Source of the DNA: Incurvaria masculella
Lineage: Eukaryota > Arthropoda > Insecta > Lepidoptera > Incurvariidae
Direction: 5' to 3'
NCBI GenBank assembly: GCA_946894095.1
Contig: OX335644.1
Location: 15,047,595-15,111,594, forward strand
Length of the DNA: 64,000 bases
The translations under genes were made by a program, and so were the position numbers. Within the stretch, counting starts at the first letter, position 1. Each line of letters opens with the position of its first letter. The notes below the pieces were generated by a model. It had not been told where the DNA came from, ran no database searches, and worked only from the letters and a program-made list of their open reading frames with translations. Below, one piece after another: positions 13,276 through 58,839 of the stretch.

Positions 13276-13290
13276 CATAAACTGATCCGG

Positions 13291-13594
13291 TAGTCTCAGT
13301 TCTCACCTAAATTGGGGTTTACGTAACTTCGAAGTTCCGTAAAACCGTCAAACTACATAAAAGTTTTTACTAGATATTCTGTGGTTTTACTTCTTCAAGC
13401 TGTCAAAGTCAAACGCGGACTTCCGATTTGTATGAAAACGCGGAGTGGACGTAAACGGCAACGTTGAGTAAGCTCTCAAATCAAGCTCGGACTCGCAAAT
13501 GTTAGTTCGCGCGCACACTTCAATTTCTCCATACATTTGAAAACGCCAGTCGATCGGTTTGCCGTAACGCTAATTTAGGTGACAACTGAGACTA
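13291..13594. mobile_element. MITE with CCGG flank, abutted by the CACTA element
   Basis: The ends are long inverted repeats starting TAGTCTCAGTT and including TCACCTAAATT, with a few mismatches over about 33 bp. CCGG precedes it (13287-13290). The matching CCGG lies at 26680-26683, after the 13-kb CACTA element, because that element inserted into the terminal TA of this MITE. No ORF; about 304 bp. Confidence 0.8.
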
Positions 13595-13929
13595 CACTCA
13601 GAAAACGAGACGTTAGCCGAGTGAGATTTTAGCTCGGCTAATTTTTTCTTGATTAAAAATAATCAAGTAGCGGCTAAAATTTAACAAGTGCTTGTAGCTA
13701 GCCCAACCATGCAAAAACGGTTAAAAATGTATTGCTAATTTTAAAACACTGATTGATTAAAAATACACTAGTTTTTTATCAAATATCAACAAGGAGCTAT
13801 TTGTTAAAAATAGCAAGTGTCTTGTTTAATATTAAACAATCGGTTATTTAAAACCTACACATCACTCGGGAAAAAATAAACGAATCAATAGTCTATATTT
13901 ATGAATTAAAATTGGCTATAATTAACCGA

Positions 13930-15289
13930 GCATCTCGGTAGTAAATGAATACTTCAGTCTGTTCATTTTAACACACTAGTGGGTAAGTTGATCGATTAAC
14001 TTATCAGTTTTTAACCGTGTGGTTTTTCTGTGTTATCTCGGCAATAATCAAACACTTTGGTTGCTAAATATAGCACATCCATCGGCAAATTTCAACGGAC
14101 TTATTTGTCAATATTTAATCAATGATATCTGCAGTAATCACTCGAACATCTCGGCAATAATCAGACACTTATGCTTGTTAAATATAGCACATCTATGGGC
14201 AAATCTTAACTGATTTACTTGACGATTTATTAAACCTTGTTGTTTGCTATTATTTACCGAATATCTCAGCAAAATCAAACAAATTCGCCTGTTAAATATA
14301 GCACATCAATGGCCAAATTTTAACCGATTTACTTTACGATTTATTAAACCTTGTTGTTTGCTATTATTTACCGAATATCTCAGCAAAATCAGACAAATTC
14401 GCCTGTTAAATATAGCACATCTATGGGCAAATTTAAACCAATTAACTTTACGATTTATTAAACCTTGTTGTTTGCTATTATTTACCGAATATCTCAGCAA
14501 AATCAGACAAATTCGCCTGTTAAATATAGCACATCTATGGGCAAATTTAAACCGATTTACTTTACGATTTATTAAACCTTGTTGTTTGCTATTATTTACC
14601 GAATATCTCAGCAAAATCAGACAAATTCGCCTGTTAAATATAGCACATCTATGGGCAAATTTTAACCGATTTACTTTACGATTTATTAAACCTTGTTGTT
14701 TGCTATTATTTACCGAATATCTCAGCAAAATCAGACAAATTCGCCTGTTAAATATAGCACATCGATTGGCAAATTTCAATCGATTCAATCGTCAATATTT
14801 ATAAAATGGTGTATGCAGTAATCAACAGAGGATCTGGGCAATAATCGTCCAATTATGTTTGTGACATAAATGTCAATCGGCAAATTTAAACCGATTTACT
14901 TTTCAATATTTAAACATGAGTATCAGGGGAAATTTAATGATCATCTCGGCAATAATCACACCTTGGTGACGTTTGAATATAGCTCTTAGGTGAGCAAATA
15001 TAAACCAATATACTTGTCAATATTTAAACATTGTTGTTTGCCGTAATTAACGGAGTCTCTGCATTAATCAGACAAATTGGTCTGTTAAATACGGCGAATC
15101 GATTGGCAAATTTCAACTGCTTTACTTATCAATATTTAAATAATTTGTGTCCGTAGACATTTACCGAACATCTTGACAATAATCAGACACATTAGTCTGT
15201 TAAATATAGCGTACCAATTGGCGAATTTCAACCAATTTATTTGTCAAAATAGAAACATTAGTGTATGCAGTAAGTGCATATTACAGTTA
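13930..15289 (+). repeat. Left subterminal satellite, 114-bp unit
   Basis: About a dozen units. Five near-identical ones (14230-14800) repeat at exactly 114-bp steps (the CCTTGTTG motif falls at 14235, 14349, 14463, 14577 and 14691). Diverged units flank them on both sides. Each holds TTAAATATAGCACATC, GGCAAATTT(A)AACCGAT and TATTTACCGAATATCTC(A/G)GC. Because 114 is divisible by three, both strands stay open, creating artificial ORFs (14244-14804 plus and 14306-14788 minus). Such arrays in CACTA elements are transposase binding sites (known family property; inferred here). Confidence 0.85.
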
Positions 15290-15589
15290 AGGTCTAACCG
15301 CACTAGGCGGAACTGCACTGCAGCGGAACGACGCGACGCGACGCGGCCAGATATTCTTTGTATTAAATTGTATGCGCTATAACGCACTACGCGGCAGCGG
15401 AACTTCGCGACAAAGTTGAGCAACTCACCAAACATGTCGCGCCGTGTCGCGGCGCGTAGTTCCGCTGCCGCTAGTGCGATATAGCAAGCGGCGCGACATG
15501 CAGTGTTATTCAATTCATAACGTGTATTGTGGGCATGTATCAAATATTTTAACGACCTTGGGTGTAAAACAGTTTTTTTTTTCGATCTC

Positions 15590-15668
15590 TTTTTCATGCA
15601 ACATGACATCCATGGCTGTCTAATGCCACACGACTACCGTTATGACATTAGTCCAACACACCATATTC
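15590..15668 (-). mobile_element. SINE fragment inside the Harbinger-like element
   Basis: ATGCAACATGACATCCATGG, CTAATGCCACACGACTACCG and TTATGACATTAGTCCAACAC are the tail-side SINE modules in minus orientation. Only about 80 bp remain. Confidence 0.65.
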
Positions 15669-15689
15669 AGTTATTTTTGTTTTATGTAT

Positions 15690-16770
15690 TTCTCTCTCTA
15701 TGTGTAAAAACTTGTTTTTGTTATATCTTGGGTAACACTGGTCGTTGACCCATCATGCGACCACTCAAAGTAAACACCCCGACCTGATCTACCTTCCTGT
15801 CATGTCAAAATTTGTTTTGGTTATATCTTTGGAAACACTGGTCGTAGACCCATCATGCTGCTACTCAAAATGAACGCCATGACCTGATCTACCTAGCTGT
15901 CATGTCAAAATCTGTGTTTGTTATATCTTGGGAAACACTGGTCGCAGACCCATCATGCGACCACTTAAAGCAAACGTCCCGACTTGATCTACCTTTCTGT
16001 CATGTCAAAATTTGTTTTCATTGTATCTTGGGAAACACTGGTCATAATGCGACCATTCCAAGTAAACGCTCAAAACACAGATGATATGACAGGCAGGTAG
16101 ATCAAGTCGGGACGTTTGCTTTAAGTGGTCGCATGATGGGTCTGCTACCAGTGTTTCCCAAGATATATCGAAAACAAACTTTAACATGACAGGAAGGTAG
16201 ATCAGGTCGAGGCGTTTACTTTGAGTGGTCGCATGATGGGTCCACGACAAGTGTTTCCCAAGATATAACAAAAACAAATTTTGATATGACAGGAAGATTA
16301 ATGAGGTCGGGGCGTTTATTTTGAGTGGTCGCATGATGGGTCTACGACCAGTGTTTCCCATGAAATAACGAAAACAAATTTTAGAACGACAGGAAGGTAG
16401 GTCAGGTCGGGGCATTTACTTTGAGTGGTCGCATGATGGGTCCACGACCAGTATTTCCCAAGATATAACAAAAACAAATTTTGACATGACAGGAAGATTG
16501 ATGACGTCGGAGCGTTTATTTTCAGTGAGCGCATGATGGGTCTACGACCAGTGTTTCCCATGATATAACGAAAACAAATTTTGACATGACAGGAAAGTAG
16601 GTCAGGTCGGGGCGTTTACTTTGAGTGGTCGCATGATGGGTCTACGACCAGTGTTTCCTAAGATATAACGGAAACAAATTATGACATGACAGGCAGGTAG
16701 AGCAGGTTGGGGCGTTTACTTTGAGTCGTCGCATGATGGGTCTGCGACTAGTGTTTCCTACCTTTTGATT
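15690..16770. repeat. 100-bp satellite arranged as two opposing blocks
   Basis: In the right block the motif GCATGATGGG falls at 16131, 16231, 16331, 16431, 16531, 16631 and 16731, exactly 100 bp apart (seven units). In the left block its complement falls at about 15751, 15851 and 15951, with a partial fourth unit, in the opposite orientation. Units contain GTGTTTCCCAAGATATAAC and TGACAGGAAGGTAG. The switch point is near 16075. A transcript through it could form a long hairpin. The small ORFs here are repeat artefacts. Confidence 0.85.
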
Positions 16771-17033
16771 GCCCACTCATGTCCACTCCAAAATAAACCA
16801 GAATAAAAAAACCGGCCAAGTGCGAGTCGCCCTTGCTACAAACTATTTTCTTCCTCACAGAGCAAAGTAACTATTATAATATCCATCTGAGTTTCTTCCA
16901 TCTTGCTCAGAAGCTGCCGATCGACTGCAAGCAAAATTTGCCGCGTAGTGTCGCGCTAGTGCGGTATACTCAGTAGAGCCGCGCCGCGTCGCTCCGCTGC
17001 AGTGCAGTTCCGCCTAGTGCGGTTAGACCTTTA

Positions 17034-17811
17034 GGCCCCCTTGCACCAACATCGTATTTAAATCACTAAATACGAGTTTTGTTAAATTGTTTTTAAGTTC
17101 GTAACTCGCTAAATGAGACTACGCGTTGCATCAACAGATAAGTTCATCTATTTAGCTAAATACGCATTTAGCGAAGAAACAATTAATTTTCTAAGCAATG
17201 GCAGCACTTTGGCAGTTTGTTCTGTTCCATTAAAGTGCCGTCTCTATCTTTTGACGCATGAAGAAGAGTGATGGTAAATTGGACTAAAAACGTATTTATG
17301 CATCAATAAAACAAACCCCACACTGTTGCCTGATTGGAATTATTTAAGTTAAATTTCGGTTGTCGTCCTTTTGAAAATCGAATCTATGTTTAATTTTGTC
17401 CAGCAAATGTAGGCCCGCAGTCTTTGAGATTCGAAATTTACGAAATAAATATTTGTCGCGCATGTTCACAAAATGGTCAGTTCTATCTATTGAAAAAATG
17501 TGTGCCGATTAAATCAATTGTTTCTCCGCCATCATCAGAATAATCGACGAAATCCATGTCTGTTGGTTGTTTGTTTGGCTCAACCAAACAAAGAACCAAC
17601 AGCTCCATCCAAATGTATAACTTGACCCTCAACAGCTCCCTAAACACGTATTTAGCGAGTTAAATGCGCGAAAAGGCTCATTTAACTTTTATTTTCTTAA
17701 ATACGATTTAAAGTGACGTTTAACGTTGGTGCAACGAACATTATTGAGTTAAATCCATTTAAGCCGTTAAACCTTATTTAAATCGCTAAGTGAGATTGAT
17801 GCAAGGCACCC
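17034..17811. mobile_element. Nested MITE flanked by TA
   Basis: Inverted ends GGCCCCCTTGCACCAAC / GGGTGCCTTGCATCAAT, with further inverted similarity inside (TATTTAAATCACTAAATAC-like blocks and their complements). Flanked by TA at 17032-17033 and 17812-17813. It is 778 bp with no ORF. It directly abuts the TTA duplication of the Harbinger-like element. Confidence 0.65.
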
Positions 17812-17869
17812 TACATTGTTATTGCTACTTTCTGCAAATTAAATCAAGCATAAATTATTTATCTTTAGC

Positions 17870-18150
17870 AGTGTACGCAATAATCCGAGTAAAAATAATC
17901 AGCTTGGCTGATTTAACGTGAACTTGGTTGATTTCAACCAAGTATGGTCAGTAGATTTCAGCCGAGTAAATTGGCTCAGTAAAATTATACCAATATATCT
18001 GCTAATTCTTGCCAAGTAAGCTCGGTTGATTACAACCGACTATATGAACTTGGTAAAATTATACCAAAACCTTGGCTGAGTTTTGCCAAGTAATCTCGGT
18101 TGATTACAGCCGAATGAGTTACTCAATTTTGCCAAGTTAAGTCGGTTGAG
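17870..18150 (+). repeat. Short-spaced subterminal motifs upstream of the promoter
   Basis: Repeated variants of GGTTGATT(A/T)CAACCGA, GCCAAGTAA and AACTTGGTAAAATTATACCA, in both orientations. They share the GCCGAGT / GCCAAGT core with the terminal regions at both ends of the element. They probably belong to the same binding-site system (inference). Confidence 0.6.
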
Positions 18151-18157
18151 CAAATAC

Positions 18158-18193
18158 TATATAAGGAAATGCACCAGTGTTCCGTTCCTCAGT
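18158..18193 (+). promoter_or_regulatory. Core promoter: TATA box plus TCAGT initiator
   Basis: TATATAAGG starts at 18158 and the arthropod initiator TCAGT lies at 18189-18193. The A at 18191 is 33 bp from the first T of the TATA box, which is canonical spacing. The promoter sits just after the subterminal motif cluster, so transposase binding could feed back on transcription, as in En/Spm (inference). Confidence 0.65.
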
Positions 18194-18688
18194 CTTTTAA
18201 AGTTTGGTAGGTGTGCGTATCAAAGATTGTCGGGCGGGCGGAACTAGGTCTCATTCTTTCAACATGGCGGCGTTGGCGGTGCCATCGTTCTTAGCAACGG
18301 TACATCGCCCATGGATCGTCATGTTGACAGAATGTGTACCTCTGGGTTTTGCCCGCCCGACCACGTGTTACTGTTGGCGATCGGCGCGAAAACCTCATAA
18401 GTCCGATATTGTGAAGTGCGAACTAATTAAATGTGTTTCTTTTGAATGGGAATTTTAACGTACAGTGCTGCGTATTATATATTATATCTGTATCAAACGT
18501 GAAGAAAGGGGATTTTTACCGTTTAATTCGTGACATTTCGTATATATTCTGTGTTAATGTGGCGTCATAAATATATAATCTGTGTTTGTGTGCCGTTACA
18601 AGTACAGTGTATTCTGTGGTGCTGTGCTGAGCCTGATAGCGTGGCGTCATTGCTGGTTTCTTCGGACAATTTACGCATCTCCTTCATT
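18194..18688 (+). other. Putative 5' leader of the CACTA genes, with an upstream ORF
   Basis: About 500 nt between the predicted start site and the SAM-protein ATG. It contains a good-context ATG (CAACATGGCGGCG, at 18264) opening a 64-aa uORF that ends at 18458, out of frame with the SAM protein. The CATGGCGGC block resembles a YY1/Pho-type site. The uORF may damp translation, or the leader may be spliced. Confidence 0.4.
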
Positions 18689-21600
18689 ATGGATCAAGAT
18701 GTATCCAATTTACTGACAGAGTGGGGTCTGCCGCAGTACGTCGAGATATTTAAAGGTACTTATACAACTATACAAATAGATCACTGTCTTGACATAACCC
18801 CACGTGCCACATTCTCGAAGCAATTAGGTGCGATGCCAGGGCATTACTTATAGCTGAGCGCTGCAACATTGAACTGAACGGAAAATACGTTTACCGCTTC
18901 GACCATATTTCACCTAACGCTATGGTAACAACATGGTCTGGCTTTAGTTTTACATACAGTTTTATCTCTTTGTGCCATGAATCCCTTAGTCGGCTCTTAA
19001 AACAAGCAGCTGAAGTGCTAGTAATACATTTTATAAAGTGAGATTTGGTTATGATTGTTTCAGAAAATGCCATTACATCGATGACAATGGCTCTACTGGG
19101 TGCCCCCGAAATAAAGGAGCTAATACCAATAATAGGGCACCGGACGCTCTTCACGAGACATTTAGATGAGTGGCGAAAGTCAATGCATCCCGAGGCAACC
19201 AGCACTCCAGTTAGTGATTGTCATTGTTCTATACCCACTAAACTAAAATGTTTGATTTTAGAATTTAATCCATTTCCACATTTCTATTAATTATTGTTGT
19301 TCTGTGTAATGTGCTAACTTTTATTGACAGTAACTATAGGTGCTTTGTGTTATTATATGACAGGTCTATGATGCAGAAGTCTCACTGACACAACTGGCAG
19401 ATCTGAGCTTCCCAATAAGTCAGATTTTATCCACCGAACCTCAACCGAGCACTTCAGCGAGCTGTGCAGTACTGCACCCTACTCCAATTACAATAACATT
19501 GCCGGGCGAATCCATAGAAACAGAAAATGTGAGTGCACATTCATTTATTTGGCTAGTTTTATCGCTATACCCATAACCTTCAATATATGAATTAATTTTT
19601 TTGTTTATGCGACCTGACATGAATGGCTAATACCACACAACTACCGTTATGATATTAGCCAAATACACCACATTCCTGAATGAATTAGGTGCCATGGCAG
19701 GACCTTCCCTTTATGAGCACGGCTACATTGAACTGGATGGAAAACACGGACAATTTTTCATTGCCGCTTTGACCATCTTTTCATCCAATGCGATGGTACC
19801 AACCCGGGCGGGCTTAAACCCTGCCACCTAGTAGGGGAAGGGGACCTACAGTTTTACATGGATTCCGAACCATGAAGCAGCTCGCATTCGTGACGAAAAT
19901 GCACTTATCGAACTCTTAAAGAGAAAGACAGTGGTGCAAGTTGGTAATGAACCCGGGCCTCTGGTACGCTAGGCCAGTCCCCGCACCACTAGGCTACGAG
20001 CCACTCTTTTCTTTAACAGTGTTAGGTTTACCCGTCGCTGTACATATGTTTTGTCGAACGCAAAAATTCCCGGTGTGCGATGCCGTACTGGACCGACATG
20101 TTTCGCCCCCAACAACGGAGGCATCGTCGGGGCAACTGCTTCCATGAAAAATGTCTGTCCAGTATAGTATCGCACACCGGAAATCGGTAGCGCTGTATTA
20201 CAATAATTTATTTCCTTTTCCCAGGACCTACAAGTACTACTAGAAGGTACCCTAGAGGGCAAAGGGCTTTTGGGTGCTGACAGGGCTGCTCCACTGGCAA
20301 ATGTTGCTCGAATCCGCTTGGTGCGATTAATTTGCACGCACATTTTAAAAAACAACCCGGAGAGAAATATAACATCAGAAATATATGCCCGATGGGCCCA
20401 CGAGATTGTGCATATATTTCCACAAGAGCAGAGATCTGTTTATTTCTACATTAAGTTTGTGGAAACTATTCGTGGAATCTCCAGGAGGCTGGGAGGAAAA
20501 CTCCCAGACCAAATACATAATTTAAAGAGGAAATACCGTGATACGGGTATAATAGTAAAACGGCGAAGATCGCCATCCATATCACCTGCTTCAACTGGAC
20601 CCAGCTCAGCAAAATCACCATCATTATCCCACCTGCCACATTTTGAGATAGAAAATGAGGAAATTGATCAAGAAAATCTACAATGGCTAAATAATTCAAG
20701 CGACCCATGGAGTCTAGTCGAACAGAAGTGGAAAAGTACAACTAATGCTCGGCTTAACAAATATAAAAATATATCTATCAGCGAATATTTCAAAGAGTTT
20801 CCCGCTCTACAGAAACCGCTGGGATACAAACTTGTAAGTATTGAAATAAATATCTTCAATTTATATACTATTTATTAAAAACAACCATCATGCACCTGCT
20901 TGGTCACTTGGCATCGACTACACTGTTTTGTATTTTTTTTGTGAACGAATGGTAATAATAAGAAAACCTTATTCGCAGCTGGAGCAAGACTTTGACTCAG
21001 TATACCCTGACAGTTCTGCGGGATTAGCGGAAAACTTTCCTCCACTAAAAAATAAGATATTCGACGTAGCCAAGAAGCGGCTGGCCTCCAGCAAAGATCA
21101 ATACGCCCAGCACCTTCTTGGTTTGGATACCGGTGAGCATATTATTCCCTTCCTTAGTAGATAATTCTTAATCAATGTTTATGCGTTTATTGTTGTAGCA
21201 TGGTAAAAAAAAGTCTCCAAGAGGCTCTTAAGATGATTCGAAACAAACTCCTCCCGCCGCGTGAAAGCCTAAGTTTTTCTAATGTGTCTATGAACCGCAG
21301 TAACGTCACATTTAAGTAATTTAATTATTAATTCACAGTAATTTAAAAGACAATTAATTTTACCTATACATATCAATGTAATTAGACAAATTTACAATTG
21401 GCGGAATCCTAAAAATATTATGGCCAAAACAACCCTTCGTAACAAATGCATGGTAAAAATAGTTCGCTGCGTTTGGTATTGATAGTAAGTATTTGGCAAA
21501 TATATTGAATTTCTCGCTATAGCCCAGTTGTGACGATTGCGTTAAATGTAAATTTGTGAAATGAAGTTGTATGGCTACAATGAAATTATTTTCCAACTTT

Positions 21601-22350
21601 AGCCGGATAGATATAGATACAGCCAGATATAGAAGATATAGCCAGCATTTTAATTCACCTTAATATGTTATGAGTAGCTCTTGCACCCAACCACAACTAT
21701 ATTGCACGGCTACATTGAACTGGTTGGAAAAGTCAGACAATTTTCATTGCCGCCTCCACCATCGTGCACACCCCAGCAGGGAGTGTTTCAGGAGGCTAAA
21801 TGTTTGACTCCTGCTCATAGAGTGCAGCATGGAGTGGAATGCTTATTTTACTGTTTTTTTTTCAGCTTCGGAGGAGATATCCAACATTGCGTGTTTCCTC
21901 TTGGTACCATCTCTACTGGCTGTCTCAACGGTGCGGTTAAAGAACTCGAACAAGAAGGTGTGGCGCCCATCGAAGTCGGAGGTTCGCGACGGGTTCGTGA
22001 CCCACGTCCAAAGCGATGCAGAATTGAGGGAAGTGCTTCATTTGCGTCGCAAAAAGTTTTCTGAGCTACGTCTCACAATTCAACCTTCTATATTTATTGT
22101 GGGTCCGTCCTTGGATCAGATTACGTCCCATTTTGTAATTGTGAATGATACTTTTTATATAGTACCCAGCATTTTTTATGCAGTAAATGCCTGTTTCAAA
22201 ATTATATGGGTTGTTAATGCCGAATATCCAGCGGAGTGTCGTTGCACGTGGACATTCGTGCAAAAAGCATTTTATAAAATTAAAACACATTTAGATGCAG
22301 ACTCAACCACAGTAAATACTCTCCTTGGTGAGTTAGGTATTTGCAACTAA
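18689..22350 (+). CDS. SAM-domain protein encoded by the CACTA element (six exons, 541 aa)
   Basis: Exons: 18689-18755, 19064-19209, 19364-19528, 20225-20833, 20979-21132 and 21866-22350. All introns are GT-AG and all phases match, giving 541 codons plus TAA. The start is the ATG at 18689 (MDQDV). Residues ~5-65 form a SAM domain split by intron 1 (EWGLPQYVEIF, then ENAITS, LLGAPEIKELIPIIGHRTLF), a fold used for oligomerisation or RNA/DNA partner binding. Residues 127-240 contain a basic helical region (ITSEIYARWAHEIVHIFP, LKRKYRD) and a KRRR cluster near 238, a possible nuclear signal followed by a Ser/Pro-rich linker. The C-terminal ~160 residues are unassigned. It lies 51 bp upstream of the transposase ORF on the same strand, suggesting a TnpA-like partner role (inference). 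The full gene is not disrupted despite insertions in intron 3. Confidence 0.8.
19595..20003 (-). mobile_element. Full-length SINE (head type A) in intron 3
   Basis: On the minus strand: a tRNA-like head with an A box TAGCCTAGTGGTG and a B box GGGTTCATTACC, then the SINE body (CGAGCTGCTTCATGGTTCGG, CCCGCCCGGGTTGGTACC, TTCAATGTAGCC-type blocks) and an A-rich tail. It lies wholly within intron 3, so it does not disturb the coding sequence. Confidence 0.85.
20066..20184. mobile_element. Small fold-back element in intron 3
   Basis: Inverted ends ATTCCCGGTGTGCGAT / ATTTCCGGTGTGCGAT continue inward as similar arms (ACTGGACNGACAT). The 119-bp unit folds almost completely on itself. It lies 3' of the SINE and 40 bp before the exon 4 acceptor. 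No clear target duplication. Confidence 0.6.
21700..21775 (-). mobile_element. SINE fragment in intron 5
   Basis: CGGCTACATTGAACTGG, GACAATTTTCATTGCCGCC and ACCATCGTGCA are middle modules of the SINE in minus orientation. Only about 70 bp can be recognised. Confidence 0.5.
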
Positions 22351-22413
22351 AATAATTTTACCACACTGTGGTGTGTTTGCGTAATATTTTATTGGCCTTT
22401 AATGAGTACTCAG
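22351..22413 (+). other. Junction between the two CACTA genes, with a possible splice acceptor
   Basis: There is no AATAAA between the first gene's stop (22350) and the second ORF. The stretch is T-rich and reaches ACTCAG at 22408-22413. The base after it is in phase 0 with the transposase frame, and exons 2, 3 and 4 of the SAM gene all end in phase 0. An alternative transcript could therefore fuse the SAM N-terminus to the transposase, or the message could be dicistronic (inference). Confidence 0.4.
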
Positions 22414-24882
22414 TATTTTCGTACTTTACCATTATTACTTAGAGCTTTAATAATGGTTGTTTGTTTTGTTTGCGGATCTTCAGTAGAAAATCTTAAACGT
22501 CTTAGACAACATTTCAAATTGACTCACGGTGACCATAATTTTGTAACCTACAATTGTAACGAAGACGATTGTAAGCGGTCATTTCAACTTTACAGTTCAT
22601 TCAAAAGACACTTCGAGAAGGAACATACTTCCAGAATCATTGATGAACTAGCCAATACTTCTAATGCGATTTTCAGAAATACACAGAATGATGAAGTTGT
22701 CACTGTACACAATAGCCCTGAAGAGCAAGCTACTAATATAGTTACAGAAAATGGGGCAGATAAAGTGTTATCAGTTTTTATTGCATCCCTGTATGCAAAT
22801 ACATTATTGCCTAGAAACATTATACAAAGTATAGTTGATGGTTTAGGAGATTATTTTGTTTCATTGGGCCCAGTTATCGAAAGCTGTATAAACACATTTT
22901 CTTTTGAAAGCTCGATGTCAGCTGACACTACAAGATCCTTAGCCCAAACGCTCATACCTTTGATGCCATCTTCGTTGGAAGTGTTTTCAACGGAACGCAA
23001 AAGATGTAACTATTTTATTGAACATGGATCTTATATTCAACCTCAAGCAATTGTCATTGGCCAGAGATTTGATAGAGTTAAAAAACGTGGCTTGACACGA
23101 ATTGAACCTGTCACATGCCAAGAACATTTCATTCCTCTTAGACATGTTTTGAAAAAGTTTTTCTCTCTCGATAGCATACTGTCCGAAACATTACAATACA
23201 TGGACAGTCTTAAAAGTAAAAATGTTACAGAAAACTTTATTCAAGGCACTTATTGGAAACACAGAGTAACTCAACATTCCGGTCGGATAGTTTTACCTCT
23301 GTTCATGTACTTCGATGACTATGAGATCGGAAATGTTCTTGGCAGTCATGCTGGTGTTCATAAATTAGGAGCAGTGTACGTATCGGTTTCGTGCCTTCCA
23401 CCATGGCGCTCATCAGTCCTATCGAACATATTCCTAGCTTTACTGTTTCATTCATCTGATAGAGTAGCCTTTGGTAACCATGTTATATTTAGACCAGTTA
23501 TTGATGAGTTCAATTTTCTTAGCGAACAAGGTGTACTGATAGATATTCCAACTTTCAAAGGTACTTTATTTTTTGAACTTGCTTTAATTCTTGGTGACAA
23601 TTTAGGAATACATGCAATGACAGGGTTTGTTGAGAGTTTTTCAGCAAATTTTTCTTGCAGAGTGTGTAAAGTTTCAAAGAATGTATTAAAACAACAGTGC
23701 CGTGAGGATAAAGCTCTTCTTCGTGATAAGTCTAATTATGAAACTGACTTGGCTTTGAATAATCCATCTTTAACCGGTATCAAAGAAAAATGTGTGTTTC
23801 TTGATGTACACAATTTTGATTTATTTCAACAGGTAGGAGCTGATATTATGCATGATGTGCTCGAAGGTGTAGCTAAATACATCTTAAGTTTTATGCTGTT
23901 ACAGTACACTGAAAGTTACAAATTATTTTCATTATCTGTTTTCAATGAAAAACTATTAACTTTTTCCTACGGACCCGATAGCAAAAATAGGCCATGTACT
24001 ATAGAAAGAGAACACCTGCATAAGGGTAGCATACGTTTGTCTTCTGGCGAAATGATGACTCTCTTACGTTTCTTTGGATTACTTGTTGGCGATTTTGTGC
24101 CAAGGGATGAAGCCATTTGGGCTATGTACATAACATTGCGTAAAATTCTTGATATACTGTTAAGTGTAAACATTTCGGTTGGAATTGATGCTTCATTGCA
24201 GGTCTTGGTAGCTGAGCTTAATGAAATGTATATGAAATTAACTAAAACCTCTCTGAAACCAAAATTTCACAATCTCGTTCATTATCACTCTGCTCTTAAA
24301 AAATATGGTCCAATTACATCACTGTGGTCGATGAGATTCGAAGCTAAGCACAGGCAATCCAAAATGGCTGCTAGAGCATCTTGCAACCGAATGAATGTCA
24401 CCTTAACTTTAGCAATGAAACATCAACTTCAACTAAATGAAATGTTTCTGAGGGGAAAACTTAGCAGTATACTTGCTTTAGGACCTAAACAGGTTATCTG
24501 GCCACATGACATAAAAAATGTTCAGTCTCAGTTAGCATTGGACCCTAAAAAGACTTTGATAAGAGTAAATTGGGCGGCAATGTCTTCCGTACGCTATGAA
24601 AAAGGATCAGTCTTAGTAGAAAATGTATGCCAAGATAGTTATAACTACAATTTTTTCATTGTGAAAAAAATTTACTTGTATGATTCCGATCGTTTGATTT
24701 TTGATGGAACTTTTCTGAACACCCTAAGTTTTGACGAACACTATTTTGCATATCAAGTCGAAACTCCATCAATAGGAAATCATATTATCATGTTTCTTGA
24801 ATCATTTCTTTCACCTATTCCAAACACGAAAAATGTAACACTAAACGGTAACCAGTACGTAGTTTTAAGAAGCCCTTTATAG
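22402..24882 (+). CDS. CACTA/CMC-type transposase (826 codons, intact)
   Basis: An uninterrupted frame of 826 codons. The ATG at codon 18 (22453) is an equally good start and begins right at the first zinc finger. Residues 21-41 form a C2H2 finger (C-x2-C-x12-H-x4-H) and residues 52-75 a second (C-x4-C-x12-H-x4-H). The catalytic core has FDD (305-306), LGDN (D399), CRVC (419-422), DIMHDVLEGV (481-490), HNLVHYH (623-629) and MRFEAKHR (E647). D305 or D306, D399 and E647 are the likely DDE residues; CxxC plus the HD and HxxxH motifs are the zinc-binding insert of the CMC superfamily. It should bind the element's ends, cut and rejoin DNA in the nucleus. The lack of stops over 2.5 kb suggests recent activity. 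Confidence 0.88.
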   Translation: MSTQYFRTLPLLLRALIMVVCFVCGSSVENLKRLRQHFKLTHGDHNFVTYNCNEDDCKRSFQLYSSFKRHFEKEHTSRIIDELANTSNAIFRNTQNDEVVTVHNSPEEQATNIVTENGADKVLSVFIASLYANTLLPRNIIQSIVDGLGDYFVSLGPVIESCINTFSFESSMSADTTRSLAQTLIPLMPSSLEVFSTERKRCNYFIEHGSYIQPQAIVIGQRFDRVKKRGLTRIEPVTCQEHFIPLRHVLKKFFSLDSILSETLQYMDSLKSKNVTENFIQGTYWKHRVTQHSGRIVLPLFMYFDDYEIGNVLGSHAGVHKLGAVYVSVSCLPPWRSSVLSNIFLALLFHSSDRVAFGNHVIFRPVIDEFNFLSEQGVLIDIPTFKGTLFFELALILGDNLGIHAMTGFVESFSANFSCRVCKVSKNVLKQQCREDKALLRDKSNYETDLALNNPSLTGIKEKCVFLDVHNFDLFQQVGADIMHDVLEGVAKYILSFMLLQYTESYKLFSLSVFNEKLLTFSYGPDSKNRPCTIEREHLHKGSIRLSSGEMMTLLRFFGLLVGDFVPRDEAIWAMYITLRKILDILLSVNISVGIDASLQVLVAELNEMYMKLTKTSLKPKFHNLVHYHSALKKYGPITSLWSMRFEAKHRQSKMAARASCNRMNVTLTLAMKHQLQLNEMFLRGKLSSILALGPKQVIWPHDIKNVQSQLALDPKKTLIRVNWAAMSSVRYEKGSVLVENVCQDSYNYNFFIVKKIYLYDSDRLIFDGTFLNTLSFDEHYFAYQVETPSIGNHIIMFLESFLSPIPNTKNVTLNGNQYVVLRSPL

Positions 24883-25069
24883 CTAAGATTGGCAAGTGTT
24901 GATACGTTTTAGAATTTACACTGTCACAGTGGACCAAAGATTAAAGGATACACTTGCAGTCAAAATGCATTCAAATATAATCGAGAACATATATTATTTA
25001 TTTCCTACATGTATTTTTTTATAATTGTTAAAAAAACAAAATACTAAGTGAGGTTGCATTAGTAATTGT

Positions 25070-25327
25070 AATAAATAGTCCATTATTTTTTGTGTTGTAT
25101 GCAAGAACCTTTGCACGGGTATGACCGGTTCGGAAACCCGCTAATGTCTTTTTTTCACTTTTAACTGGAAGTGTATTGTTTGAACTTTAGTCGATTGTAC
25201 ATCAAGTTAATCAAGAAAACATGTAACTCTATATTTTATTTTTAAGTTCTGCACATTTCAATATTCATTTAATTTTATTGTAATTTGACTCATTCCTACA
25301 GTTTGTAAGTATTTTTTATTCAATAAA
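25070..25327 (+). terminator. Polyadenylation signals after the transposase gene
   Basis: AATAAA occurs at 25070-25075 and 25322-25327, 190 and 440 bp after the stop codon and before the right subterminal array. These are the first good signals downstream of both CACTA genes, so a shared 3' end is plausible. Confidence 0.5.
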
Positions 25328-25493
25328 ATAATGTCAACTGTACGCCCATTTGTTTATTTTTTATATTTTCTAGGTGATTTTCCTGATGCGAAGAAATACT
25401 TGGGGCTACGCGTAGTCCTTTAGATAACTGCATCATTACGCAGTTATTGAAAAAGACACCTGTATCATCCGGCTGCAACTTTGTAGCCAACTT

Positions 25494-26540
25494 ACTTGGT
25501 TGTGTTAGCCAACCTACTTGGCTGTGGTAGGGAACCATTAATCGGCTGCTGCAGCCAACCTGGTTTGGCTACCGGCTGTGGTAGCCAAACTTGGTTTACT
25601 GAAGCAGCCGATTATAGGTTCCCTACCACAGCCAAGTAGATTGGCTAACACTACCAAGTAAGTTGGCTGCAACAGCAGAGTAGGTTGCCTACCACAACCC
25701 GGTAGGTTTGCTACCACAGCCGAGTAGGTTAGCTAACACAACCGAGTAAGTTGGCTGTTACAGCTTAGTAAGTTGCCTACCACAACCAGGTAGGTTTGCT
25801 ACCACAGCTGAGTAAGATGGCTTCGACAACCGAGCAAGTTGGCTACCACAATCGCGTGGGTTTGTTACCACAATCGAGTAGGTCAGCTACCACAGCCGAG
25901 TAAGATGGCTCCGACAACCGAGCAAGCTGGCTACCACCACCGAGTGGGTTTGATAAAATAACCGAGTAGGTTTGCTACCACAGACCAGTAGGTTTGCTAC
26001 CACAGCTAAGTAAGATAGCTCAGACCACCGAGCAAGTTGGCTACCACAGCCGAGTGTGTTTCATAAAATAACCGAGTAGGTTTGCTACCACAGACCAGTA
26101 GGTTTGCTACCACAGCTGAGTAAGATAGCTCCGTCAACCGAGCAAGTTGGCTACCACAGCCGAGTGGGTTTAATAAAATAACCGAATAGGTTTGCTACCA
26201 AAGACCAGTAGGTTTGCTACCACAGCGAGTAGGTTTGCTACCACAGCTGTGCAGGTTGGCTACAACAGCCGGGCAGGTTGGCTACAACAGACGAAAGAGT
26301 TTTATAATATAATCGAGTAGTTCGGCTACGACAGCCAAGTAGCTTGATTACCACAGTCGAGTAGGCTGGCTGCGACAGCAGAGTCGGTTGACTGCCACAG
26401 CCCAGACGTTGGCTGCCACAACTGTGTAGGTTGGCTAAAATTAGCAGATTAAATCGGTTTGGTGTGTATGTGTGTGTGAGGTGCTTAACCAAGCAACTCG
26501 GCTGCGGTAACCGAGTGAAATTTAACCGAGTTATTAGGGT
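25494..26540. repeat. Right subterminal array: 22-bp units in 110-bp blocks
   Basis: The unit core GCTACCACAGCCGAGTA recurs about every 22 bp for a kilobase. In its middle the landmark ATAAAATAACCGA falls at 25953, 26063 and 26173, so five units form a 110-bp higher-order repeat. The first part (25430-25620) also holds units in reverse orientation. The GCCGAGT core is shared with the left terminus (TTAGCCGAGTGAG at about 13613). It is probably the transposase recognition array. Confidence 0.85.
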
Positions 26541-26727
26541 ATTTTCAAGCAAGATATGTTTACCAAATCGACTCGACTAAAATGTGCCAATTCTGTTTGC
26601 AAGCGCTATTTTAGCAACGGGGTTGGCAGATTTTTGCCATCAATTTGGCTGTTTCTAACCATTCCGTTTTCTCAGTGTACCGGCTCAGCACACAGTTAAC
26701 AATTAAAGTACATTTTTTTATCTAAAA

Positions 26728-26830
26728 CGCGGCATGTAGCGTACGCCAGGCCCTCACCTAAGAGGTGTCTAATGGCGCCCATGGGCTTCCGAACCTTCAC
26801 AGGTGCTGCGAACACCATGCCGGTCGGCTG
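26728..26830. repeat. Dispersed repeat with GCCCATGGGCTTCCGAACC core, copy 1
   Basis: Contains CGTACGCCAGG, GCCCATGGGCTTCCGAAC and CTGCGAACACCATGCCGG. Related blocks occur at 59607-59810 and, inverted, at 63158-63212. It could be a fragment of a retroelement; I cannot name the family. Confidence 0.5.
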
Positions 26831-42447: not shown

Positions 42448-44696
42448 TCAATAACCCCATTCATCGGAAATGATATCAGCGGCCCTTTCCCCGATTGCGA
42501 TACACGCCGCAGCCGTGCAGCCGCGCGGCAGGAGCGGCATGACGCTGCCGTCGGCGACGCGCAGCCGCCGCACGCCGCGCACGCGCAGCGCACCGTCCAC
42601 CGCGCGCCCCAGCGCCGCCGACCCCGCGCCGTGGTACACCGAGCCCGTCAGCACGCGCACCCAACACGACCAGTACTCCTTCCCCTCGCACTCCTCCAGC
42701 TCGAGCCGCACTAGCGACGCGTTTTGCCCTCTGAAACTGGACGTCTCCAGCAGCCGCTCGATCAGCCGAACACCACGCACCAACGCCGCGGCATCTCGCT
42801 TGTCCTCAAGATAATCTGCATGCAAGAGGACGGGATCGTCAGGGTTGGAGCTCCGAAGTTGGATCCGTCCGCGCGACGCAGGCCGCAGAACGACGGCCGC
42901 GAAGATCAAAAGCTCACTGGCTAGGTTGATAGCCTCGATCTGGTCTAGGATATCCGGCCGGAGACCGGTCGTGTCAGCGAGGATCGAGCGCGCGAGCATT
43001 GCGGCGCCGCGCGGCAGACGGGCGTGGATCATCTGCAGGTCGGGCAACTCGCAGTCATCACCGAATACACCTGGACCTCGCTCTAAGCAACCGGTGTTAA
43101 CAAAGGTGGTGTGGTCGGTAATGTCTATGGTCGACAAAGGACTGTTTGCATCGCCGAGGGAACGCAACAGATCAGGACCAACTTGTAGGATTGGTAGCGA
43201 ATTTAGTGGACCGGACCCCGCTGCTTGTATTTTCACCATTAACATTGCAAGAACGTGGTCCTGAAGATCTTCGCCCACAGCGGGCAAGTCGACATGTACC
43301 GTGACATTCACTCGCCTCAGGTGCTCTGCGGGTCCCACACCCGACAACAGAAGCAAGCGAGGTGTCCCAATTGCACCAGCTGACAATATCACTTCTTTCT
43401 CGGCGTAAACACGGATGCGCCTTCCGTCTATTAGTTTTGCGATCACTCCGACGGCCCTACATCCCTCGTTGATGATAACGCGATCAACGCGCGCTCTCTT
43501 TACGAGAATCAAGTTGCTCCTCGAAGCCAAAGGTGATAGATACGCTTGCGCCGTGCTTTGTCGTTCACCTTCGTGTACGTAACCCAAGCTTTTTGTCACG
43601 CCGAGTTGACTGCGGCCATTGATATCGGGGTTAAAGGGAACGCCAACTTCGTTGTAAGCAGTGACCAGTCTCTCGGGCCACGGGGATTGGTTTTTTTTAA
43701 AGAAATCTATGTTAAGGGGTCCGTCGACTTCATGGTATGGCCAGGAGGTCGGTGGTAACTCTCGAAGTTTCTTAAGCCCCTCTGCGCGTAGGAAGTATGG
43801 CTCGAGGTCACGCCAGCTCCAGCCGGGCACTCCCCACTCGTCGTAGTCACGCCGGTTGCCGCGGACGTAGAGCATGAAGTTGGTGCTGGTCCCTCCGCCG
43901 AGGACGCGTCCCGCCGCGTAGTTGCAGGAGCCATCATCCTGTCCGAGGCAGGACTTACCGTTGCCGACGGTCTCGTAGCTCCAGTCCGTTTCGCTTCGAA
44001 AGTTCAGAGGAACCAGAGCCGGTACCTGGAATTTGTTATTTAATTGATTCATTCATAATGAATTTTTGTTTTTATTTAAGAATGTGTGCTAGACAAGAGC
44101 TAGGCCTGGTCCCAGCCATGTGAAATGCTGCTAAATATGTTGTATTATTCAACAATAGCTTGGTTTTCTACCATACATCCCCTAAAACGACCAATACGCT
44201 TTTGCACAGCACTTGCGACTGATCGCAACGAGACAACCAAAAAAATATGGGTCTTCATTTAGCCCCATTAGCGTGATTCTCACGAGACTGACCCTGGACG
44301 TGAGGTGTGGATCACCGCCTGCCTCGAACAGCAGCACTGAGGCCCCGCGCTCCGCCAGCCGTGCCGCCAGCACGGCTCCAGCCGCGCCGGCGCCCACCAC
44401 CACAAAGTCCCACTCCGATCCATCTAAAGTGAACAACATCACATATCACATGCCATAAAGGGGAGTTCTGTACTAACAAAACTGTGTTTAAAAAGTTGAA
44501 CTTGCAGACTACTGTTCAATCAGGTAGATAATTAATTAATAGTACGGATTGTTTTTAATATGTCGGATATATTACAGCTTGTTACAGGAGCTAAAAGAGC
44601 TAAAGACTCACCTTTAAGGCCACTGCTTCCATCCGGAGAATACTGGGAGAGCACGCACGAGATAACAAGGCTCCATACAAAAACATGACCATACAT
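42448..44696 (-). CDS. GMC-family FAD oxidoreductase, glucose-dehydrogenase-like (three exons, 597 aa)
   Basis: Minus-strand exons 44696-44612, 44423-44293 and 44025-42448; both introns are GT-AG and the phases match. Start ATG at 44696: the first ~18 residues (MYGHVFVWSLVISCVLS) are a signal peptide, so the enzyme is probably secreted or lumenal. The FAD-binding GAGAAG lies at 39-44 with an acidic residue at 62 (LLFEAGG). GMC signature 1 is at 111-121 (GRVLGGGTSTN) and signature 2 at 287-301 (SAGAIGTPRLLLLSG). The catalytic His537 is in VYHGAG. The second catalytic position, usually N or H in RG-N-T, is C575 here (PRGCTAAA). Length is normal for insect GMC enzymes, which oxidise sugars, alcohols or ecdysteroids; the substrate cannot be told from sequence. 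A broken paralogue lies at 53565-54259. Activity is uncertain because of C575. Confidence 0.9.
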
Positions 44697-49388: not shown

Positions 49389-49862
49389 TCAAAATTTTAC
49401 GAATTTGGATTGTAAACGTTCGATTTGTGCCTTATGAGTTTCATACTGAGTTGACCAGATACAAGAGCCATACTCCAAAATACTTCTCACAAAAGCAAAG
49501 AACAATGTCTTTAAGCATTCGACGTCGGTAAAAGGCTTTCCAATCCGCATAACAAATCCTAGATTTTTATATGCTTTATCTGTTATAGCTTCCAGGTTGT
49601 TGGTGAATAACAGTTTCATATCTAATAGGACGCCTAAATCTCGCACTGTGTTAACTTTTTCAATAATGGTATTATTCATGATATAGTTATAAATTATAGG
49701 TTTAGAGCTGCGAGTGAAAGAGATTTGTTGACATTTACTGCTATTGACTTGGATCCTATTCATTTTATAATATTCCTGAAGAAGGTTGAGATCCCCTTGG
49801 AGTTGTTCACAATCATTTAAATCCTTAATTACCTTTATGACCTTTTTGTCGTCAGCATACAT
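49389..49862 (-). pseudogene. LINE ORF2, C-terminal RT part (after the frameshift)
   Basis: Starts at the YADD motif (MYADDKK) and continues through VNTVRDLGVLLD and FAFVRSILEYGSCIW to a premature TGA. The same frame resumes after the stop and continues to 49014, so only one nonsense change separates it from the tail of the protein. Confidence 0.85.
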
Positions 49863-49891
49863 AGAGTATTTTGAGGAAAAAAGACAAGTGC

Positions 49892-51540
49892 CTATGTCAA
49901 ATAAGTAAGCATTAAAAACAATGGGCCAAGGTGTGAACCCTGCGGCACCCCAGAAGGTATTGCTATAAAGTCAGATCTAAATCCTCCCATGACAACAGCC
50001 TGTGATCGGTTAGATAAATATGATTCCACCCATCTTAGAAGGTCACCATGTATACCCAAACATTTAAGTTTATGCAACAGGATGGTGTGATCTACACGAT
50101 CGAACGCTTTCTCAAAATCGGTGTATATCACATCAACCTGACCACCACCTTGAATATGTTTTATTATGTAATTAGTGTACTGAGTGAGATTCGTTGTAGT
50201 TGATTTGCCTTTTAAAAATCCATGCTGAGATTCTGAGATGCCATTTGATATTGTAGAATAGATTCCATTGAGAACTATTTTCTCGAACAATTTGCTAAAA
50301 ATGTTAAGAATAGAAATGCCTCTGTAATTTTCGATTTTGGTTTTGGTTCCTTTTTTGTGTATCGGAATTATATGCGCTTCCTTCCATATGTTTGGAAAAA
50401 CGCCTTCACGAATAGAACGAGTAAATATTATGAGCAATGGGTATGATAGCGATGTAGCACAGTTTCTAATATATATTGGAGATAGATTATCACTTCCGGC
50501 ACCTTTATTTATATCAATATTTAACAGTAGCTTTTTAATTAAATTAATATTTATATCAATTGTATGTATGTACCCCGTATCCCCATATTGATTAACTGAA
50601 ACTTGAATGTTATCATAGTTACGTGATGGCAACTGAAATACGCTCTCAAAGAAATCACTAAATCCATTGCAAATATCCCTCGTGTCAGTAAACTTTGTCA
50701 GCCCAAACGAAAATGATTTAGGATAATTAGAGGTACCTCTTTTTGATTTTATGTATGACCATAATTTTTTAGGGTTGGACTTAATTGAATTCTGAACCGA
50801 TTGAATGTAATTGTAATAACATTCATTTTGTAATATATGTTGTCTTTTCCTTAGTAAAGCAAACTCATCGTAGTCACTTGGATTATTGAATACTTTCCAT
50901 CGGCGATGTGCTCGTGATTTATGTTTTATTACTTTAATGAGTTTCCGAGTGTACCATATAGGGTAATTATTTTTATTTTGCTTCGTCGAAAATGGTATAT
51001 ATTTATGTAAGCTTTCATAGATTATGTTATAAAATAAATTTACTACATGATCCACCGTTCCAGAATATAAAATATTATCCCAATTGATGTTTTCCAAAAA
51101 AATGTTTATGTTCTCATAATCACCCCTCGTATAGTTAAATCTGCGCGTACATGCCTCAATTAACGGCGCTACTTGCAGATCTGTAGCATCTAAAATGAAA
51201 GATGGGTGTGCACTGTCTTCTCTGATTAGGGGCGAGTCACATCTAATAATATCTCCAGTAAAATTGGTAAAAACTAGGTCTAAAGTATGGTCATACGAAT
51301 TTTTTAGGATATTTCGTTGATTAAAACCTAAAAGGTTTAATTCCTCTACTAATCTATGTCCAGCGTTTTGAATGTCTACCGAACCACGTCGAAGGTGGAC
51401 TGGTTGTTCAGAAGTCCAAATAATGTGGGGTAAGTTAAAGTCACCGATTACAAGAAAGTGATCTTCCCTGTGAGCTGCAGTGAGGCACGTTACAGAGTCT
51501 AATATTCTATCGAGTTCGATCGGTATCAGTGCAACCGGTT
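49892..51540 (-). pseudogene. LINE ORF2, endonuclease C-terminus and RT N-terminal part
   Basis: Open from about 51540 to the frameshift (stop at 49892). It holds the end of the endonuclease domain, then the linker and RT motifs up to PSGVPQGS. The frame breaks directly before the segment leading to YADD. Confidence 0.85.
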
Positions 51541-58228: not shown

Positions 58229-58611
58229 TTTTTTTTATGCGACCTGACATGGACAACTACCGTTATGATATTAGCCCAATACACCACATTCCCGAAAAAA
58301 TTAGGTGCCATGCCAGGACCTTCCTTTATGACCACGGCTACATTGAACTGGATCGAAAACACGGACAATTTTTCATCGCCGCTTCGACCATCTTTTAATC
58401 CAATGCTATGGTACGAACCCGGGCGGGCTTAAACCCTACCACCTAGTAGGGGAAGGGGACTGACGGTTTTACATGGATTCCGAACCATGGAGCAGCTCAC
58501 TTTCGTGACGAAATGCACTTTTCGAACTCGGAAAGAGAAAGAAAGTGGTGCATTGAACCCAGACCTCTAGTACGCTAGGCCAGTCCCCGTGCCACTAGGC
58601 TACGAGCCGCT
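58229..58611 (-). mobile_element. SINE (type A), full length and best preserved
   Basis: On the minus strand: GCGGCTCGTAGCCTAGTGGC (A box), GGTCTGGGTTCAATGC (B box), CACTTTCTTTCTCTTTCCGA, GCTGCTCCATGGTTCGG and CCCCTTCCCCTACTAGGTGG. Then CCCGCCCGGGTTCGTACC, GGTCGAAGCGGCGATG, TCCAGTTCAATGTAGCCGTG, CATGTCAGGTCGCAT and an A tail. It is the reference for head A. Confidence 0.88.
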
Positions 58612-58839
58612 CATACGAGTCATACATAAGATTGTGCGGTCGGTCGATTCTACATCATAGCATATTCTTTGAAACATGGCTTTCTTAGAGAGTCTTGATG
58701 AACACATCAAACGTTGTTATATGTGCAAACACGATCATACTTATGATACTGACCGAATAATCACCGCTTTTCAGTAGGAATTAGATAATTTATGATACAT
58801 TATAAATAAATAGTTTTGAAAGTTGTGTTTTATTCCACT

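Follow-up and report, generated by a model that had tools for sequence, protein, structure and literature searches.

We analyzed a 64,000-nucleotide stretch of Incurvaria masculella DNA, referred to below as the window. At positions 13595-26677 it contains an element that we regard, with a probability of about 0.92, as an intact and very recently mobile DNA transposon of the EnSpm/CACTA type (CMC) carrying two genes. The element is bounded by a left terminal inverted repeat, CACTCAGAAAACG (13595-13607, plus strand), and a right one, CACTGAGAAAACG (26665-26677, minus strand), which are alike in 12 of 13 bases and each occur only once within the window. A TA target duplication stands on either side (13593-13594 and 26678-26679). 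Both genes lie on the plus strand. Gene 1 consists of six GT-AG exons between 18689 and 22350 with a joined frame of 541 amino acids, and gene 2 (22453-24882) encodes a transposase of 809 amino acids plus stop. An earlier interpretation made from the letters of the window (the sequence-only reading) had described matching CACT(C/G) ends, flanking TA dinucleotides and two open genes. The ends proved to be exact, and a TA-flanked CACT pair of equal quality was present in none of 100 Markov-simulated windows. Both genes are indeed intact, but gene 1 is made up of six exons instead of one open frame.

Terminal repeats and target duplications

The genome of the same species was searched in full (552 Mb in 31 contigs, with the window copy on contig C4). 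The 13-mer end occurs 63 and 68 times in it, compared with 11 and 11 occurrences of a reversed control pattern. From 100 listed of these 131 places we took all convergent pairs within approximately 25 kb, which yielded 21 end pairs selected by the CACTC/CACTG 13-mer pattern itself. A matching 2-bp target duplication flanks 18 of them, mostly TA and also TC, TG, TT and CA; a 3-bp duplication was seen in none of the 21. Mismatched left-right pairings, which served as control, agreed at 2 bp in 128 of 420 instances, owing to the high frequency of TA. Thirteen short copies of 195-1022 bp share the 13-bp ends. Their ends are closer to the copies on contigs C1, C2 and C13 than to the window family, and their link to the window element consists of the common 13-bp end and transposase kinship.

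Copies of the element and recent mobility

Three copies of the family were found, namely the window copy, a second one at C17:17210679-17223960 and a third one at C5:20542993-20565223. The sequence-only reading had named several copies with shared ends in the host assembly as a test of mobility, and the search returned these three, two of them at 99.95% identity. The C17 copy measures 13,282 bp and differs from the C4 copy by six substitutions in 13,082 aligned bases (17978, 21292, 21308, 22421, 26238 and 26376), all of them outside coding exons, by an additional 200 bp (two units) in a 100-bp array and by one base less. The transposase frame and all six exons of gene 1 are identical between the two copies. 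If about 3e-9 mutations arise per site and generation, a value for Lepidoptera, six differences place their split at approximately 75,000 generations ago, which is a rough figure. The C17 copy resides at an unrelated site, and the identity begins and ends at the inverted repeats. The C5 copy is 94-98% alike, depending on the block. Its transposase frame is open and shows 12 base differences from C4; of the 11 codons affected, six encode a different residue. Just 5′ of its gene 1 start codon, between the equivalents of window positions 18646 and 18655, the C5 copy carries a 9.4-kb insert whose frames resemble those of retrotransposons. This insert harbors long polyprotein-like frames of the long interspersed element (LINE) and copia types and terminates in a copy of the repeat into which the window element has inserted.

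That repeat is a miniature inverted-repeat transposable element (MITE) of the host, which is not part of the element. It is about 310 bp long and spans 13284-13594, and its last bases, CCGGCTC, resume at 26680-26686. Its inverted ends (13290-13319 and 13566-13595) are 90% alike. At least 40 near-full-length MITE places exist, the window's included (40 of 1286 candidates were scored). In the window, the right end of the MITE reads GAGACTA, then the element, then TACCGGCTC. We read the same end in eight other copies (L084-L090, and L056 inside the C5 insert). Three of the eight (L056, L089 and L090) display an unbroken GACTACCGGCTC with a single TA, followed by divergence. The element therefore sits 9 bp inside the MITE end, and TA was duplicated on its arrival. 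The uninterrupted MITE copies are a related empty site, not an allele. A host repeat of 104 bp was also noticed to be shared by the right flank of the window element (26725-26828) and the left flank of the C5 copy (L049:1337-1440), the two being 82% alike.

The element is taken to be recently mobile because of the shared 13-bp ends, the 2-bp duplications, the unfilled relatives of the target site and the 99.95% identical dispersed copy. Copies with flanks of their own and unfilled target relatives thus bear out the mobility proposed before.

More distant relatives were observed in the same genome. A sister element of 13,965 bp at C13:13591024-13604988 possesses the same 13-bp ends in the CACTG form, a CA duplication, an open transposase frame 62% identical to that of the window and an open gene 1 exon. 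In another family the transposase is 49% identical. Nine copies of it (L013-L021) are distributed over contigs C2, C12, C20, C21, C25 and C26 and differ from L015 by 0-2 bases over 5,427 compared, pointing to a very recent burst across several contigs. The left end of this family is CACTGAAAAAAATT; its right end was sought and not resolved. L015 and a further member, L022, lie about 11 kb apart on C21 in the same direction, and gene 1 matches recur there at equal spacing.

The transposase gene

The start of the transposase was set at 22453 and not at 22402, because 26 of 29 aligned homologues have no upstream extension. The protein comprises N-terminal C2H2 fingers, a RAG1-like DDE core and a BAH-like C-terminus. 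D305, D399, C419-x2-C422, H623-x3-H627 and E647 are invariant in all 30 aligned sequences, and we infer that the first catalytic aspartate is D305 or D306, the latter being present in 27 of 30. Predicted fold matches indicate an RNase H-like DDE fold of the RAG1/Transib group. Transposase_21 (tnp2) was recovered by 8 of the 30 members at E ≤ 0.01 and by 14 at E ≤ 5. The C-terminus is a possible BAH-like chromatin-reader domain, an assignment less sure than that of the SAM-domain partner encoded by gene 1.

A protein search with the transposase gave 327 matches, the best 120 of which were compared. Among these, the closest named relatives come from Eupeodes (65%), Cydia (60%), Photinus (58% over 71% of the query) and aphids (48-49%). 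In a quick tree of 45 rows the window transposase groups with a hoverfly protein and one unnamed protein (SH-aLRT support of 94), and the named Lepidoptera do not form one group, at least four changes being forced. This pattern is no proof of horizontal transfer, because many old lineages of such elements coexist within a single genome; the accessible part of one report does describe horizontal transfer of CACTA elements among invertebrates (PMC4298943). Scans of viral and genome contig collections with the transposase alignment revealed no relative, and a structure search of BFVD gave no match at E ≤ 0.001. There is thus no sign of a viral carrier in BFVD at that threshold.

Gene 1 and its association with the transposase

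Exon 1 of gene 1 (18689-18755) contains the start codon and the beginning of a SAM domain, the remainder of which is encoded by exon 2 (19064-19209). Exons 3 (19364-19528), 4 (20225-20833), 5 (20979-21132) and 6 (21866-22350) follow, the last one ending in the stop codon TAA at 22348-22350. The N-terminus shows a SAM fold and matches SAM_1 with an E value of 0.001 and 19.9 bits. Precomputed PF00536 is assigned to the gene 1-bearing relatives P0079 and P0082. Moreover, the model of the Eupeodes relative fits the SAM domain of tankyrase-2 at 1.5 Å with a template modelling score of 0.85 by target, the Foldseek E value being only 0.07. Similar SAM domains are found in tankyrase, ANKS3 and Shank, and several of these polymerise. 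Pfam returned SAM and DUF4769 only for gene 1, all below cut-off, and no kelch; in the Pfam scans of both genes no TET/JBP domain was found. A protein search with gene 1 produced three matches, from Eupeodes (52%), Cydia (51%) and Microctonus (48% over 61% of the query); it scored 7,994 candidates sharing most words, a filter that may explain the low number.

The transposase search of the own genome resulted in 52 matches, 30 of which were taken as loci. At 27 of these loci a gene 1 relative has its last exon upstream on the same strand, down to transposase identities of 30-36%. The 30 loci include near-identical copies and are not independent, representing by eye about a dozen lineages. The exceptions are L031, which is the 3′ part of the copy of L035, L037, which matches another exon only weakly, and L038, a fragment without match. 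Among the 120 listed proteins, seven carry gene 1 sequence in front of the transposase (P0044, P0055, P0062, P0071, P0074, P0079 and P0082); in P0044 the two matches overlap oddly.

In the window, 102 bp separate the gene 1 stop from the transposase start. The 49% family (L013 and L015) displays the junction TAA-G-ATG with a single base in between, which is unusual for an animal gene pair. Two animal genes placed this close together suggest that alternative splicing or reinitiation is at work. Alternative splicing is used by Spm and SmTRC1 according to the available text of PMC1636069.

Subterminal regions and nested insertions

The left subterminal region (13595-14033) is rich in CCGAG/CTCGG (11.4 per kb) and shows 100% identity to the C17 copy and 99% to the C5 copy. 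It is followed by an array of 114-bp units (14034-15288, the units themselves located at 14065-14785), the nested MITE-like inserts N1 (15290-17030) and N2 (17034-17811), and a second part of the subterminal region (17813-18175; 11.0 per kb). On the right side, an array of 22/88/110-bp units (about 25483-26437) precedes the right terminal region (26438-26677; 12.5 per kb). Subterminal arrays are accordingly present at both ends, as had been noticed from the sequence.

CCGAG/CTCGG reaches 11-12.5 per kb in the four terminal pieces and 2.4 in the 114-bp array, whereas the core has 0.4, the flanks have 0.75-1.0 and N1 has 0; the motif was chosen via shared k-mers, so that the enrichment in the window arises partly by construction. 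Sister ends contain 20.7 per kb on C13 (right end only), 13.2 and 9.9 on C1, and 13.2 and 10.6 on C2, compared with 0-2.7 outside the ends, the C1 and C2 copies being closely alike and hence not independent. The ends of the 49% family, the left one of which differs, are not high in the motif (1.07 and 0.77 per kb). This distribution fits CCGAG/CTCGG as a candidate lineage-specific binding site.

N1 has 52-nt inverted ends that are 96% alike and is flanked by TTA on both sides; it is present in the C17 and C5 copies. Two facing arrays of 100-bp units occupy its interior, and their unit count differs by two between C4 and C17. N2, with imperfect inverted ends and TA on both sides, is found in C17, and about 360 bp of it are absent from C5. 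Intron 3 of gene 1 harbors a host repeat resembling a short interspersed element (SINE) (19593-20006, plus strand), 86% identical to a copy at 58229-58612; further pieces lie at 18790-18944 and 21698-21768. N1, N2 and the SINE pieces all occur in the C17 copy too and therefore travel with the element. Subtraction of N1, N2 and the long SINE leaves about 10 kb. The length of 13.1 kb given by the sequence-only reading holds, but its description as unusual loses force, as about 10 kb remain without the nested MITEs and SINEs and a 9.2-kb relative from Aedes has been published (PMC1636069). The C13 element (13,965 bp) and the 49% family (approximately 13.2 kb, its right end being uncertain) are also long.

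A TATA-like box and a TCAGTC initiator-like site 5′ of gene 1 (18158-18194, plus strand) had been read as a core promoter. Three TATA/TCAGT pairs exist in the window on both strands versus 1.45 expected, so the pair is not significant alone and not clearly rarer than chance. The core promoter was dropped as independent evidence.

Classification, proposed mechanism and alternative explanations

The assignment to the CACTA/CMC type was substantiated by the D-D-E, C(2)C and H(3)H residues, the CAC..GTG ends and the 2-bp duplications. Ends of the form 5′-CA..TG-3′ and target duplications within 2-5 bp agree with EnSpm/CACTA elements in the CMCT clade (PMC12730594). Maize Spm/En carries subterminal repeats, as the window element does, and plant CACTA elements have CACTA termini and 3-bp target duplications. 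The window element departs from this plant type by its CACTC/CACTG ends and 2-bp duplications, and gene 1 is likened to TNPA by role only. Like maize Spm/En, it has CACT ends. Both also possess a transposase accompanied by a second protein, in maize TNPD and TNPA (PMC1636069).

According to the accessible part of the same report, TRC-type animal CACTA elements (SmTRC1 of Schistosoma; Aedes, Tribolium) share with the window element a Transposase_21-related transposase, 2-bp duplications, more than one protein and long insect members such as the 9.2-kb Aedes element (PMC1636069). In contrast, TRC ends begin with CCC and those of the window element with CACT, which rules out the TRC subtype. Whereas the second proteins of SmTRC1 show no detectable conservation in that part of the description (PMC1636069), relatives of gene 1 occur in several orders of insects. 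ESTA elements, placed in the CMCT clade with Mirage, Chapaev, Transib and RAG1, are defined by TA duplications in the text available (PMC12730594). Membership in ESTA is ruled out by the additional TC, TG, TT and CA duplications. RAG1L-RAG2L transposons resemble the window element in their two-gene layout, RAG1-like catalytic core and possible chromatin-reader domain. Their genes are convergent in the available account, whereas those of the window point in the same direction; their partner protein contains kelch and PHD domains instead of SAM, and the BAH-like domain of the window element is located on the transposase itself (PMC7204232).

Several observations weigh against an intact and recently mobile two-gene CACTA element. 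The C5 copy is damaged by a TAG in exon 4 of gene 1 and by the 9.4-kb insert. Three of the 21 end pairs (L061, L062 and L063) have no 2-bp match. Five of the eight MITE ends differ from that of the window after GAGAC and are uninformative on the site, and the joined C17 flanks, searched genome-wide, match the filled C17 site only, as a single copy. The transposase falls under the Pfam cut-off for Transposase_21 (17.2 versus 28.6 bits), as does gene 1 for SAM_1 (cut-off 23). Past the SAM domain the gene 1 model is poor (mean predicted local distance difference test score of 57) and unfit for fold-matching.

Given an intact CACTA element, which is probably autonomous, the following course of transposition can be envisaged. 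Binding of the transposase and/or the gene 1 protein to the subterminal repeats rich in CCGAG would come first. Via its SAM domain, the gene 1 protein might gather many bound sites and so play a part comparable to that of TNPA in maize Spm. The 809-amino-acid transposase with its RAG1-like core would then cut at the CAC ends and reinsert the element at a 2-bp staggered site. Both proteins may originate from one transcription unit by alternative splicing, which is proposed because of the distance of 102 bp between gene 1 stop and transposase start here and of one base in the related family.

Alternatively, gene 1 might be a neutral passenger or an anti-silencing gene outside the transposition complex. 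Plant TNPA, for comparison, is also regulatory (PMC1636069, available text). The position of gene 1 next to the transposase, kept in families at 30-36% transposase identity, argues in the opposite direction, and we consider a role outside the complex unlikely while taking it seriously. It is improbable that the element, its own transposase being inactive, was recently carried along in trans by a related copy. The C13 element with its identical 13-bp ends, CA duplication and open transposase frame could have acted in this way, and most examined short derivatives resemble the ends of C13, C1 and C2; the window transposase, however, is open, has kept all invariant residues and does not differ between C4 and C17, giving no hint of inactivity. 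A recent segmental or assembly duplication without transposition might account for 99.95% identity over 13 kb, but the identity is bounded by the inverted repeats, the flanks differ, TA surrounds each copy and the joined C17 flanks match the C17 site only, which makes a duplication very improbable. A domesticated host locus, that is a former transposon fixed in place for a host function, would suit two intact genes with relatives in several insect orders and is refuted by the near-identical copy, which lies on a different contig and has flanks and a duplication of its own, by the many related intact copies and by the unfilled MITE copies, so that we give it hardly any credence.

On the favored reading as a recently mobile CACTA element, what is new is the conserved SAM partner and, with less certainty, a chromatin-reader-like tail on a RAG1-like core. 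A literature search, with subscription papers largely outside it, found no paper describing a BAH domain in, or a SAM partner of, DNA transposases, as judged by titles, term counts and the opening of abstracts; Repbase and Dfam may list elements of this kind. More speculatively, and in our estimation doubtful, the element could belong to a lineage of CACTA elements with two genes that is widespread in insects and has not been described. Its RAG1-like transposase would have a BAH-type reader of its own, as a counterpart of the RAG2 PHD finger, and a SAM partner would polymerise on CCGAG arrays. If true, the catalytic core also used by the V(D)J recombinase would underlie a two-protein system of independent origin, which continues to move in the genome of a lepidopteran. 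Conservation of the SAM partner is relevant to a gap in the 2006 description of animal CACTA elements, in which second proteins were without conservation. The RAG1-like core with its possible reader tail bears on the origin of chromatin sensing in transposases and the V(D)J recombinase. Two coding-identical copies, short derivatives sharing the ends and a sister family in one genome provide a natural test system, which bears on whether an animal CACTA element requires one protein or two.

Surroundings of the element

Neither Rfam, at its gathering threshold, nor a tRNA scan gave any match in the window. The sole long host-like frame outside the element encodes an ecdysone-oxidase-like GMC oxidoreductase (42448-44052, minus strand). 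It has 33 matches at E ≤ 1e-100 and is at most 45% identical to the listed relatives. Its named matches at this threshold, judged by their names, are presumably all Lepidoptera, consistent with the insect origin suggested by the sequence-only reading. LINE reverse transcriptase-like frames are located at 49389-51097 on the minus strand.

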